The notes under the pieces: generated by a model
Told to the model about the DNA's origin: nothing
The model's input: the letters and a program-made list of their open reading frames with translations, nothing else
Database searches by the model: none
Shown here: positions 623 to 35,000 of the stretch, one piece after another
How the letters are laid out: the number at the start of each line of letters is the position of its first letter
Numbering within the stretch: the stretch's first letter is position 1
From: Planctomycetota bacterium
GTDB lineage: Bacteria > Planctomycetota > UBA1135 > GCA-002686595
Length of the DNA stretch: 64,000 bases
Assembly (NCBI GenBank): GCA_023150475.1
Contig: JAKLKU010000012.1
Span: forward strand, 124,001 to 188,000
Reading direction: 5' to 3'
Position numbers and translations under genes: made by a program

Positions 623-1498
623 TCAGTGAGCCCGTGTACCGAGCTCGAGCGCATCGGCGGCGAGTTCGCGATACGGCGCGAGCAAGGCACCGACGTCGAT
701 CGCGTGCGGCCCGGGCGCGTGCAACCAAACTTCGAGGCCGCGCAGCAGCGGGCCCGAATCGGGGTGTGCGCGCAGCTTGGGCAGCACGGCTTCCGGGCGT
801 TCCGCGTCGAGACCGAGCCTGCGGCTCCAGTACTCGACGAGCCCGCGCTCGAGCGCCGCACGTTCCTCGCGGCCGAGTTCGCCCGCCGCCGCGCGGCGCA
901 CCAACGGCTCGAGCTTCTCCGCGAGCGTCGCGGGTCGCGCCGCCGCGGCTTCCGCGGCGCGTTTGCGTCGACCGAGCGCGAGCAGCAGGGCGAGCCCGAC
1001 GAGCCACGCCGCGCCGCCGAGCCACAGCGTGGTCGTGTAGCCGCCGAGCCGCGGGCTCTCGCGCGGTTCCGGCGAGTTCGGCGTGAGTCGACCCTCCGCG
1101 AGCGTCGCGACGGCCAGGAGCTTCGGCGCACCGAGTGCCGCGGGATCGCCGAGCGGACCGTTGTCCTTGCGCCGCAGGACGCTCGCGACGTCGTGGAGGC
1201 CCGGCTCGAGCGCGACGAGCTCGAAGTCGTAACGGAACGCGTCGCCGTGAGGCGCGCAACGCGTGATGCGCACGACGAGCGGCGCATCGGACGCGAGCGG
1301 CGCGACTTCGAGTTCGCTGCCCTCGAGCACGACGTCGCCGATGCGGGCGGAGAGTCCGACCGGGGCTTCGAGTTGCACGGAACGGCTCGCAGCTTGCGTC
1401 GCATTCGCAGCCCGCGCCGGATTCACGGCTTCCGCCGGATGAGCCGCTTCCGCGGGCTGCGACGCTTGCGCGCAGGCGAGGACCAGGCTCGCGAGCAT
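623..1498 (-). CDS. Bat operon membrane-anchored hypothetical protein (BatD-like position)
   Basis: Signal peptide MLASLVLACAQA, one central TM (AAWLVGLALLLALG); start overlaps DUF58 stop (TGATG). Confidence 0.6.
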   Translation of the reverse strand: MLASLVLACAQASQPAEAAHPAEAVNPARAANATQAASRSVQLEAPVGLSARIGDVVLEGSELEVAPLASDAPLVVRITRCAPHGDAFRYDFELVALEPGLHDVASVLRRKDNGPLGDPAALGAPKLLAVATLAEGRLTPNSPEPRESPRLGGYTTTLWLGGAAWLVGLALLLALGRRKRAAEAAAARPATLAEKLEPLVRRAAAGELGREERAALERGLVEYWSRRLGLDAERPEAVLPKLRAHPDSGPLLRGLEVWLHAPGPHAIDVGALLAPYRELAADALELGTRAH

Positions 1499-29460: not shown

Positions 29461-29500
29461 TGGCTCGGAGCCTCCGCGTCGGCGATCGTCTTTGCCCCTC

Positions 29501-30154
29501 ATGACCGTCATTGCCATCGAAAGTTCGACGCTCCGGCCGTCGGTTGCCGCCTGGCACCGAGGGCGCTGCATTCAAGCGTGGCTCTCGTCGGAGAAGAGCC
29601 ACGCCGCGGACCTGCTCCCCACCGTCGCATCGCTGTTGACGCAACTCGACCGCCAGCCCGGCGACATCGAACGCGTCGTCGTCGGACGTGGACCGGGAAG
29701 TTACACCGGTTTGCGGGTCGCGGCGGCGACCGCGATCGGCGTCGCGCGTGGCACGTCGGCGAGCATCGCCGGCATTTCGTCGTTCGAGGCGCTCGCGTGG
29801 CGCGAGCTCGCGCCCGGCGAACGTTGCGTCGTCTTGGTCGACGCCCGCGCGCACGAAGCGTACTGGGCGATCCTCGCGCGCGGTGCGAACGACGTCCTGG
29901 TCGAGACGGCGCCGTCGGTCGCGCACGTCGAGGACGTACCGGCGCTGCTGCCGCGCAACCTGCCGATCTTCTCGCACGCGGGCATCGAGTTGTCGGTGCC
30001 GCTCGACGACGCGCAGCGCCGAATGGTGCGCATCGATGCGGTCCCTCAAGCGAGCGCGTTGCTCGAGCTCTCGCTCGAGCGCGGCGAACGCTGCGATCCG
30101 GACATCGAGCCGCTCTACCTGCGCGCGTTCGCTGCCAAGCCGCGGCGCGCCTGA
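29501..30154 (+). CDS. tsaB: tRNA threonylcarbamoyladenosine biosynthesis protein TsaB
   Basis: MTVIAIESSTLRPSVA..., VVVGRGPGSYTGLRVAAATAIG. Confidence 0.95.
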   Translation: MTVIAIESSTLRPSVAAWHRGRCIQAWLSSEKSHAADLLPTVASLLTQLDRQPGDIERVVVGRGPGSYTGLRVAAATAIGVARGTSASIAGISSFEALAWRELAPGERCVVLVDARAHEAYWAILARGANDVLVETAPSVAHVEDVPALLPRNLPIFSHAGIELSVPLDDAQRRMVRIDAVPQASALLELSLERGERCDPDIEPLYLRAFAAKPRRA

Positions 30155-30224: not shown

Positions 30225-30260
30225 GAACGCCTCCGGAGGTGCGAACCTCCGAAGGCGTTC
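30225..30260. terminator. long hairpin (15/16-bp stem) between convergent tsaB and histone-like gene
   Basis: gaacgcctccggaggt-gcga-acctccgaaggcgttc. Confidence 0.7.
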
Positions 30261-30312: not shown

Positions 30313-30522
30313 TTACAGGTCTTGCGGGCGCAGCGTCTTGCGGCCGTTCGACATCGCGCGCTTCTCGGCGCAGGCGATCATGCCGCGCACGGCTTCGTCG
30401 AGCGCGCTGTAGAAGTCGCCGGAGACGTTGATCTTCGCGCACGCCTTGGTGCGGCTCTTGGAGATGATCAGGTCGCCCGCAGCCTTCTTCGCCTTGCCGG
30501 GCTTCGCAGCTTTCTTGGCCAT
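30313..30522 (-). CDS. bacterial histone-fold protein (69 aa, Lys-rich N-terminus)
   Basis: MAKKAAKPGKAKKAAGDLIISKSRTKACAKINVSGDFYSALDEAVRGMIACAEKRAMSNGRKTLRPQDL; pattern A..R...NGRKT(L/V)RP.D(L) of histone-fold alpha2-L2-alpha3. Confidence 0.75.
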   Translation of the reverse strand: MAKKAAKPGKAKKAAGDLIISKSRTKACAKINVSGDFYSALDEAVRGMIACAEKRAMSNGRKTLRPQDL

Positions 30523-30832
30523 GTGATGGTTTGCCTTCTCCCCGTAGGGGATCGGTTCTCGTGTGGGATGTTCGGCGCCGCTCGCGAGCCTGTTGGACAT
30601 CGAGAAACGCGCCAATCTGGCGAAAGAATGGCGAGCACGGGGGGGGTCGTCAAGGACCGGGGCGAACGGAATCCGGCGAATCGAGCGCGATTTCGAGGTC
30701 CTTTCGACGCTCGACAGACACTCGTCGGACGGGTGCGCCGAGCTCCCGCGAACCACCCTCGGAACCGCGACGTCGGTGGCGGACGACGCGAGGAACGCTG
30801 CGACGCACGCCGCACGCCGCGCACGTCGACCA

Positions 30833-30860
30833 TTGAACCGCGCGGCGCGAGGAGTAGTCT
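30833..30860 (+). promoter_or_regulatory. promoter TTGAAC-N16-TAGTCT, 7 nt upstream of GTG of alr
   Basis: -35/-10-like elements at canonical spacing. Confidence 0.55.
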
Positions 30861-30867
30861 CCAAGCC

Positions 30868-32061
30868 GTGGAGGCCTATCGGGTCTGGGCGGAGATCGAC
30901 CTCGACGCACTGGCGTGGAACTTGGCGTCGATTCGCAGGCGCATCGGCGCGAATCGCGCCGTGATGCTGGTCGTCAAGGCGGATGCGTACGGCCACGGAG
31001 CCGTCGCCGTCGCCCATCACGCGCTGCGGCACGGCGTCGACGCGTTCGGCGTAGGCACTTCGGCGGAGGCGCTCGAACTGCGCAAAGCCGGCGTCCGGGC
31101 GCGGATTCTCGTGCTCGGCACGATCGTCGAGGACGAAGCTCCGGCGTGCGTCCGCCACGGTGTCGAGATCGCCATCCATTCCGCGGATCGCTGCCGACGC
31201 CTGCAGGCGCTCGCGCGGCGCATGGACACGCGCGCGCGCGTGCACTTGAAGGTCGACACGGGGATGGGCCGGCTCGGTGTGCTGCCGGAACGCGCGATGG
31301 CGCTGCTCGAGCTCGTCCACGCGTCGCCCAATCTCGAGCTCGCCGGGGTCATGACGCACGTCAGCGCTCCGGCGGGCGCGCTCGATCCGCACACGCACGG
31401 CCAGATGGGTCAGTTCGAGCGCGTGCTCGCGGCGGCCCGTGAACGCGGCCTCCTGAAAGGTCCGGTGCACGCGGCGAACTCGGCGTGCATCTTCACCGGC
31501 CTCGATCCGCTGTACGACATGGTGCGTCCGGGAATCAGCGCCTATGGAGTGCTGCCCGGCAACCTGCCCGGCGCGGAAGAGCTCGAGCCGGTGATGTCGC
31601 TGCACACGCAGATCGTTTTCCTGAAGGACCTGCCCGCGGGCGCGCCGGTCGGCTACGGCGGCACGTTCGTCGCCAAACGCGCGACGCGGATCGCGATCCT
31701 GCCGATCGGCTACCACGACGGGATGAGCTGGCGGCTCGGCAACCGCGGCGCGGCGTTGGTGCGCGGCGCCCGCGCACCGATCGTCGGCCGCGTCTCGATG
31801 GACTACACGACGCTCGACGTCACGGCGATTCCGCAGGTGCGCGTCGGCGATCGAGTCACGTTGATCGGCCGCCAAGGCGAACGTGCGATCCGCCTCGAGG
31901 AACTCGCGCACGCCGCCGACACGATCGCGTACGAGATCAGTTGTGCCGTCGGTCAGCGCGTCGAGCGCGTGTACGTCGGCGGCGAAGACGTCTTGCCGCG
32001 CCGGCGCGCGCAGAGCACGCTCCAGCGCTCGCCCGAACCGCAGCCGTCGGCGGGAACTTGA
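30868..32061 (+). CDS. alr: alanine racemase
   Basis: GTG start; VWAEIDLDALAWNLASIRRRIGANRAVMLVVKADAYGHGAVAVA; GRVSMDYTTLDVT. Confidence 0.95.
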   Translation: MEAYRVWAEIDLDALAWNLASIRRRIGANRAVMLVVKADAYGHGAVAVAHHALRHGVDAFGVGTSAEALELRKAGVRARILVLGTIVEDEAPACVRHGVEIAIHSADRCRRLQALARRMDTRARVHLKVDTGMGRLGVLPERAMALLELVHASPNLELAGVMTHVSAPAGALDPHTHGQMGQFERVLAAARERGLLKGPVHAANSACIFTGLDPLYDMVRPGISAYGVLPGNLPGAEELEPVMSLHTQIVFLKDLPAGAPVGYGGTFVAKRATRIAILPIGYHDGMSWRLGNRGAALVRGARAPIVGRVSMDYTTLDVTAIPQVRVGDRVTLIGRQGERAIRLEELAHAADTIAYEISCAVGQRVERVYVGGEDVLPRRRAQSTLQRSPEPQPSAGT

Positions 32062-32094
32062 ACGTCGCGCGTCGGCGCCCGACGCGCGTTCGCC

Positions 32095-35000
32095 ATGCAG
32101 CGTCCTCTCTCGTTCGCGCGCTGGGTCGCCTTCGGGCTCGCGCTGGTCGTGCTCGCGGTGCTCGCGCTGCTCTTCGCGTACGAGAAGAGCGGCGTGCTCG
32201 CCGAACGCGTGCGACACGAACTCGGCGCGCGCCTCGGTGACGGGACGACGCCGATCACGATCGGCGCGGCACGGCTGCGGTGGTTCGACGGGCGGCTCGA
32301 ACTCGACGAGCTCCGCATCGGCGACGTCGTCGAGTTCGAGCGACTCGAAGCGGACTTCGACGTGTTCGCGCCGGAAGGGCCCGCGCTGCGCGCCGCGCGT
32401 GCGGCTGGCGGACGCGTGACGCTCGGCGCGCGCCTCGGAGCGCTCGCCCGTGGCGCCCCGAGCGCCGAGTCCGCGACGGATACGCAGCCGAAGATCCTGC
32501 CGGAGCTCGAGCTCGCGGGCGTCGCGCTCGAGTACGAGACCACGACGGGTGCGCGGGTGCCGCTCGGCCGTGTCGACGCGCGCGCCGCCGTGCGCGACGC
32601 GCTCGCCCGGCCGGCGTACGACCTCGAGGGGCTCCTGCGCGTCGCCGCCGAAGACGACCCGCGTGGTGCGCTGCATCTCCAGGCGCGAGCGACCGATCCG
32701 GAGCGCTACGAGTTCGTCGCGTGGAGCGACGACCTCGCGTTCGGACCGGACGCCGTGCCTTCGCTCGCGGCGTCGAAGACACTCGCGGAACTCGCGCCGA
32801 GAGGCTCGCTGAAGCTCGTCGCGCGCTGCATCTTCGACGTGGCGGCGGTGCGACCGGTGCGCGGCTACGTCCGCGCCTCGCTCGCGAACGGCACGGTCGA
32901 CGCGCCGGGCGGACTGCGCTCGATCACCGGCGTCGACGCGGAGCTCGAGCTCCATTGCACGCCGCGCGACGGCGAAGCGTGGACCGCGCCCGCGGCTTGG
33001 CGTGGCGCATTGACCGCGAACGCGAAGTTCGGCGATGCGCGCGCCCGTTTGTTCACCGATCTCGGCGGCGCCGCGGGAGCGGAGCACTACGCGAAGGGGT
33101 TCGTCGAGCTGCGCTCCGCCGACGTCGTGCTCGCCGACCTCGCCGCATTCCACATGCCGGTCGAAGCGCTGAACGCGCTCGAGGCGTACGGCGTCGGAGG
33201 ACGCGCCGATGCGTTCCTCGGCATCGCCTGGCGCGCGAACCACGAAGTCGCGTTCGCGCTCGAATGCGAGACCCGCGGCGAGGGCCGCGTCGACTTCGTC
33301 GGCTTCGCGAACGAACGCGGCGAACGCCGCGGTTTCTCCTGGCCGATCGATCGCGCCAGCGGTCGCGCGCTCGTGCTCTACGAGCCGCGCAACGTGCACC
33401 GCACGCACGTCGCGATCGTCGGTGCCTACGGTCACGGCCGGGACGGCGCGTCGCGCGTCGCCTGCGAAGGCATCGCCCGCACCCACGCGCATGGCGAGCA
33501 CCGCGTCGACTACGACTTCGCGCTGATCGGCAACGACGTGCCGGTCGACGACACGTTGCGCCGCGGCGTCGCTTCGTCCTCGGGCTCCGACGCGATCTGG
33601 CAACGCTTCGCGCCGAGCGGCGGCACGGTCGACGTGCGCGGAAGGATCCAGCAACGCGCGGAGGACCCTGGGTCGGCTTCGACGTTCGAAGTCGAGCTCC
33701 GCGACGTCGCGGCGACGTGGTCGGAACTGCCGGTCCCGTGTGAAGCGCTCCGTGGCTCGCTCGTGCTCGCGTTCGACGCGCGCGGGATCGCGGCGACGAG
33801 CTTCGACCTCGCGGGCCGGCCGGTGTCGAGCGACGGCGCGACGATCCGCGGCCGCTGGCAGGACGATCCCGCGGCGTCGGAACGCATCGCCGCGGAACGC
33901 GCGATCGAGGCGCTGGAGATCCGCGTCGACAACTTGGCGCTCAAGGGCACGCAACGCGACGCGATCGTCGAGCGCTTCCCCGGCGTCGGCGGCGTGCTCG
34001 ACGAGTTCGGGGCGAGTGGCCGCGTCGACGTCGCGCTGCAAGCGACTCTGGCCCGGGCGGGCGGACCGCGGCGCTTCGATTTCGAGATCACGCCGCGCTT
34101 GGTCCAGCTCGCGCCGCGTGCGTTCCAAGTGCAGACGCGCAACGTGCGCGGCCGCGTGCTGGTCGGCGTGCGCGAAGTGCCGCCGACGACGCCGACCGGC
34201 AGTCCGGGAGCCGACGTGACGACGGCGGTCGCACCGCTCGTCGGCGATTGGTCCGGCACGACGCGCGTCGCGTTCCACGCGGAGTTCCCCCCGCGCGGTC
34301 CGGCCGAACTCGCGCTCGCCGGCGCCGGACTCAACCTCGAGAACCGCGCGTTGGTCGGTGCGTTCCGCCAAGCGACGGCGGACGAGCGCGGCGGCGGACT
34401 CGACCTCGAGGCGCTCTCGCTCGAAGGACGAATCGACTTCCGCGGCGCGTTGTCGCTGCCCGACGACCGTTCGCCGCCGAAGACCCGATACGAGGTCTAC
34501 CTGCGCGAGAACGACTTCCAGATCGGCGGCGGGATGAGCTTCGGGCTCCAGCGGCTCTCCGGGTTGCTGGTGCAGAGCGACGGGAAGCTCTCGGGGGACT
34601 CGCTCTCCGCGCGCATCGGTCGCACGCCGATCGCTCTACGCAACGCGCGCTTCGAACAACAGGACGGCGAGTACCTGCTCGCCGCCGAGCCGGAGGCCTT
34701 CGGATTGCCGCTCGATCGCGAGCACATGCGCTTCTTCCTCGACGACGACACGTTGAAGGCGCTCGAGGAGCAACTGCGTTGGCAAGGCGCGATCGACATC
34801 TACGACGCCCAACTGACGCTGCGCGGCCGTTCGGCGAGCGAATCGACGGTGCGTTTCTCGGGTTCCGTCGTGCCGCACGGGATGTTCGTCGACATCGGTC
34901 TGCCGCTGCAGATCGACGAAGCGCGCGCGAAGATCCGCGAACTCGTGCTCGAACACGGCGCCGTGCGTGCGTGGGCCGAGATCGACGGACTCTCGGGGCG

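Follow-up and report, generated by a model that had tools for sequence, protein, structure and literature searches.

The locus described here lies in a stretch of 64,000 nucleotides from a Planctomycetota bacterium, which is called the window in the following. It contains a small gene on the minus strand (30313..30522), which runs from an ATG at 30522..30520 to a TAA at 30315..30313 and is located between two co-directional plus-strand genes, tsaB (29492..30154; tRNA threonylcarbamoyladenosine protein, PF00814 with an E-value of 4e-20) and alr (30868..32061; alanine racemase, PF01168 and PF00842). These are the flanking genes already named in the original prediction for this DNA, and both are conserved neighbours that stand outside the unit formed by the small gene. 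An operon of the latter with tsaB or alr was rejected, because it is encoded on the opposite strand. Translation of 30522..30313 yields exactly the 69 amino acids quoted in the original prediction, followed by the stop codon. The ATG is preceded by a ribosome-binding site, GGGAGAAGG (30534..30542, minus strand), which shows no difference among four genomes of the genus. The gene is present as a single copy in its own genome, and the encoded protein is basic, with a pI of 10.2 and a net charge of about +9.

A hairpin with a 16-bp stem (30225..30260, minus strand) is located past the stop codon, between the small gene and the convergent tsaB. It had been described as strong, which agrees with a z-score of -4.8 for the folded stretch against shuffled sequences and with its recurrence in two relatives from the same genus (L004 and L006). 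The U run following the hairpin is weak in the window and clear in L006, and a scan of the locus for consensus promoters and terminators reported nothing, the hairpin included. It probably represents a transcription terminator, with tsaB converging on it from the other side. An Rfam scan gave no match at the locus.

The 69 codons also constitute the final, in-phase part of an open frame of 1352 amino acids (34371..30313, minus strand). The suspicion that this frame is spurious and hides the true gene at its end is well founded, since it runs antisense to alr, is reduced to an open frame of just 160 amino acids in two genomes of the same genus, and shows protein similarity only from MAKK onward. 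The in-phase overlap and the lack of a Pfam match or a credible NCBIfam match for the single sequence might be taken as signs of a chance open frame, or of a small basic protein other than a histone. This explanation carries a practically negligible probability and is refuted by the retention of the gene in 90 of 110 genomes of the class, by dN/dS values of 0.15-0.29 between the window gene and its genus relatives, by the invariant histone residues, and by fold and profile matches to solved histones. An alignment of 34 homologues contains 16 invariant columns, which is beyond chance, and the gene is under purifying selection.

Scans of the single sequence against Pfam, NCBIfam and PHROGs did not return a histone family, nor did NCBIfam give any credible match, and the remark in the original prediction that such histones are frequently missed appears fair. 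Searches of the PDB recovered histones of known structure, most clearly with a profile built from the alignment of the 34 homologues. Whereas phmmer with the single sequence matched 9f2c at 2.6e-4 and 9qt0 at 1.1e-3, the 34-homologue profile identified HTkC (9f2c) with an E-value of 2.5e-11 and HLp (9qt0) with 8.6e-8, followed by HBb (1.5e-3 for 8cmp and 1.8e-3) and the archaeal HmvA (0.025), and it matched no non-histone protein under an E-value of 0.3. Structure prediction likewise shows a histone fold: the AlphaFold model of the monomer, made with the same alignment, has a mean pLDDT of 79.9, with means of 87-94 for blocks of 10 residues from residue 21 onward, and consists of helix 1 (residues 22-28), helix 2 (residues 35-58, 24 residues) and a one-turn helix 3 of three residues (66-68). 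As judged from this model and the invariant residues R55, N59, R61, T63 and D68, the histone-fold core comprises residues 18-69 (30316..30471, minus strand). The top nine Foldseek matches are all chains of HTkC, HLp and HBb with a probability of 1.00, HTkC and HLp ranking first and HBb after them, in agreement with the profile search against the PDB. The match to HLp shows an rmsd of 1.1 Å and a TM score of 0.86 (normalised to the target); the Foldseek E-values are modest (best value 2.9e-3) because of the short chain of 69 residues. Profile search, predicted structure and fold search thus support the assignment of the 69-aa protein as a histone-fold protein.

The histones with a truncated third helix, known as alpha3 histones, are characterized by a helix 3 that spans just 3-4 residues and by a shorter helix 2 than in nucleosomal histones; they are divided into tetramers of the face-to-face (FtF) type and a remainder to which the bacterial dimers belong (Schwab et al., PMC11390915). 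The three-residue helix 3 of the model conforms to the alpha3 type, and the window protein ends one residue beyond the Asp of the RxTxxxxD motif; a nucleosomal histone of archaeal or eukaryotic kind was rejected, as helix 3 comprises about 10 residues in that class. A DUF1931 pseudodimer, which contains two folds per chain, was also rejected in view of the single fold in 69 amino acids, although DUF1931 is the commonest Pfam match among the homologues (11 of 34, all weak, with a best E-value of 0.0096).

Within the alpha3 histones, tetrameric bacterial FtF proteins conserve residues corresponding to R49, N53 and R55 of HLp, together with a clamp formed by R55 and D62 (Hu et al., PMC12701072), while two residues of the tetramer, R48 and N52 in the numbering of the FtF profile, are missing from the dimer histones (PMC11390915). 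The counterparts of the three HLp residues in the window protein, R55, N59 and R61, do not vary among the 34 aligned sequences. The same applies to R61, T63 and D68 of the RxTxxxxD motif with its RD clamp, and to K26, which HMMER aligns with K17 of HLp, the equivalent of the conserved DNA-binding Lys on helix 1 of FtF histones (K16 in the profile). Both R and N are kept in 34 of the 35 rows of the class group, the exception being a divergent extra copy (L015). In addition, HTkC and HLp are placed above HBb by both profile and Foldseek, and a tree of 78 sequences, used only as supporting evidence on FtF versus dimer type as it is based on about 60 columns with few resolved forks and modest support, groups the window protein with the FtF proteins and leaves HBb and three further sequences (L122, L124 and L127) outside. 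The features of an HBb-type dimer, absence of R and N and clustering with HBb, were not found. Every feature tested speaks for the FtF type, and we consider the protein to be an FtF-type alpha3 histone of a Planctomycetota lineage with a probability of roughly 80%; the tetramer itself is predicted by analogy with HLp. FtF histones as such have already been published, including their occurrence in Planctomycetota and the basic tails they carry (PMC11390915, PMC12701072).

The original prediction had likened the protein to the small histones of bacteria such as Bdellovibrio, which holds for its being a histone, while its nearest relatives are the FtF proteins HTkC and HLp rather than the dimer HBb. 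A histone of the HBb/Bd0055 type, staying dimeric and bending DNA instead of wrapping it, would be consistent with the matches to HBb by profile (1.5e-3) and Foldseek, with the RKTxxxxD motif common to dimers, and with a shortened helix 1/loop 1, which could change DNA wrapping. Nevertheless, this appears improbable, because in HBb, L122, L124 and L127 at least one of the two tetramer residues R and N is missing, and these sequences are separated in the tree, albeit with modest support, from the FtF group containing the window protein, whereas R and N are invariant throughout the class save for the divergent extra copy. The sequences L127 (genome G091), L124 (G148) and L122 (G188) represent dimer-type, HBb-like histones in Planctomycetota, and G091 and G148 each encode a dimer-type together with an FtF-type histone. 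The divergent copy (L015:1255-1734, minus strand; genome G011, contig 424) is a second histone with K and G in place of the tetramer residues R and N, and is extended at the C-terminus by about 82 residues; this extension was found nowhere else among 111 class genomes in a search run without a positive control. A coiled-coil-like ORF of 118 amino acids (1255..899) begins at its stop codon in the style of a two-gene operon.

A comparison with the characterized histones shows which features are shared and which are peculiar to the window protein. HLp from Leptospira perolatii (PDB 9QT0/9QT1/9QT2; PMC12701072) has the same alpha3-truncated fold, the R/N/R tetramer residues, an RD clamp equivalent to R61-D68, and K17, T57 and R59 (the latter two in l2) as equivalents of K26, T63 and R65. 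It differs in its helix 1/loop 1, which is about three residues longer and contains K21 as a residue without counterpart in the window protein, in carrying K54 at the position of G60, in its tail, as the Lys/Ala tail is longer in the window family, and in its neighbouring genes, which are smc and map instead of tsaB and alr. HTkC from Thermococcus kodakarensis (PDB 9F2C; PMC11390915), the best match by both profile and Foldseek, shares the VS-xxFY-AL start of helix 2 and the GRKTL loop, but is archaeal, tailless in the solved chain, longer in helix 1/loop 1, and has E at the position of N59; neither the fold nor the tetramer therefore strictly requires this residue. HBb/Bd0055 from Bdellovibrio bacteriovorus (PDB 8CMP, 8FVX; PMC11317129, PMC10627809) has the alpha3-truncated fold and RKTxxxxD in common with the window protein, yet shows S and D at the positions of R55 and N59, forms only dimers, bends DNA, and again contains about three more residues in helix 1/loop 1. 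The other FtF histones of Planctomycetota (e.g., L089, L098, L104 and L126) share the basic N-terminal tail, the R and N residues and RxTxxxxD; they read SKVKAYIK..xMxSGD at helix 1/loop 1, whereas the class of the window protein reads SKSRTKAxA--xNVSGDFY, about three residues shorter than the SKVKAYIKxKGxMxSGD of other FtF histones. It follows from this deletion that the class has no counterpart of the DNA-contact residue K21 of HLp, although the counterparts K26, R61, T63 and R65 are kept. As judged from these sequence features, the path of the DNA may differ from that on HLp.

The second variable region is the Lys/Ala-rich N-terminal tail, which comprises residues 1-18 up to the IISK core (30469..30522, minus strand) and shows pLDDT values below 50 at residues 1-3, 5-9 and 11-13. 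Its description as Lys-rich was correct, but the enrichment is modest, with six Lys in 18 residues. Among 33 class members the tails extend over 13-51 residues (median 33) with net charges of +3 to +25, and those of the window genus, at 17-18 residues, are among the shortest. Basic tails are common in bacterial FtF histones (PMC11390915).

By analogy with HLp, which wraps about 60 bp, two chains would pair in a head-to-tail histone handshake along helix 2, and two such dimers would close face to face via R55, N59, R61 and the tips of helix 3, giving a tetramer in the shape of a ring. Around this tetramer, DNA would be wrapped over a length of about 60 bp irrespective of its sequence, with K26, R61-K62-T63 and R65 holding it in place and additional electrostatic contacts from the disordered Lys-rich tail. 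Tetrameric, nonspecific wrapping is on balance the likely mechanism, the points against it being the absent K21 counterpart and the replacement of K54 of HLp by G60.

In the cell, the protein would act as a nucleoid organizer beside HU, not as the sole one, and one that can be lost. A role as the only nucleoid protein was rejected, because four genes of the HU/IHF family (PF00216) are present in the same genome. They include one for a protein of 139 amino acids with a Pro-rich, Lys-containing C-terminal extension (L084:1471-1890, plus strand, contig 9) and one for a standard HU of 89 amino acids (L085:1501-1770, contig 10). HU has been reported absent from the two histone-bearing Leptospira species discussed in the literature, unlike in the genome studied here. 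The HU-family genes and the apparent repeated loss of the histone gene would also fit a histone-fold protein of low abundance with a regulatory or locus-specific task and no general chromatin role, and prokaryotic histones need not all be global organizers (PMC11390915). We regard this as unlikely, since the basic tail and the DNA-contact residues are retained, two bacterial relatives, Bd0055 and the histone of Leptospira, are abundant proteins (PMC10627809), and the codon usage is nearer to that of ribosomal genes than to that of the neighbours. The codon score of the histone gene (0.029) compares with means of 0.038 for ribosomal genes and -0.045 for the background, based on ten genes of the ribosomal operon and six window genes; as 10% of the background chunks score as high, codon usage is suggestive but too weak as a proxy for abundance.

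Of 293 genomes sampled from the phylum, 135 contain a match to the profile. The named relatives are mostly metagenome-assembled genomes of Planctomycetota, with a few unclassified bacterial ones and a single archaeon, Candidatus Woesearchaeota, whose FtF-like histone (L042:3980-4168, plus strand) is 41-45% identical to the window protein and contains NVTADFYSALDEKV, which corresponds to the start of helix 2 in the window class. The histone gene is flanked by tsaB and alr in most members of the family and still adjoins tsaB in other families of the order. In all 14 histone-less genomes examined (L128-L141), tsaB directly adjoins alr; the aligned ends of the two genes are 40-151 nt apart, compared to 716 nt in the window, and the junctions contain no convincing histone motif. 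On a tree of alr, the pattern of presence and absence needs seven changes, of which strongly supported branches force just two. Repeated loss is the simplest reading, because the histone gene occupies the same place in several families, and the data suggest repeated clean loss from one fixed site, although transfer of alr and poor resolution of the tree may also lie behind the pattern.

New here are the occurrence of the gene in 90 of the 110 genomes of the class, the class-specific deletion of about three residues and the clean tsaB-alr junctions in 14 of 14 genomes. Taken further, they might describe a distinct FtF subtype with a short helix 1/loop 1, a lineage-variable H1-like Lys/Ala tail and a DNA path different from that of HLp, encoded by a dispensable and repeatedly deleted chromatin module; this is a tentative reading, to which we assign less than even odds.

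Histones have been reported from fewer than 2% of bacterial genomes (PMC12701072), yet the one described here is found almost throughout an entire class of Planctomycetota. Attempts to delete the Bdellovibrio histone failed (PMC10627809), and the Leptospira histone has been described as essential (PMC11390915, PMC12701072). Direct experiments are limited by the fact that the named relatives identified here are known from metagenome assemblies. For specialists, the points of interest are the presence/absence pattern at tsaB-alr and the shortening of helix 1. The occurrence of close relatives that either carry or lack the histone gene at one fixed locus opens a comparative approach to the function of a bacterial histone in the presence of HU, and if the reading as a subtype and deletable module were true, the class would offer natural histone-plus and histone-minus sister species in HU-bearing bacteria.
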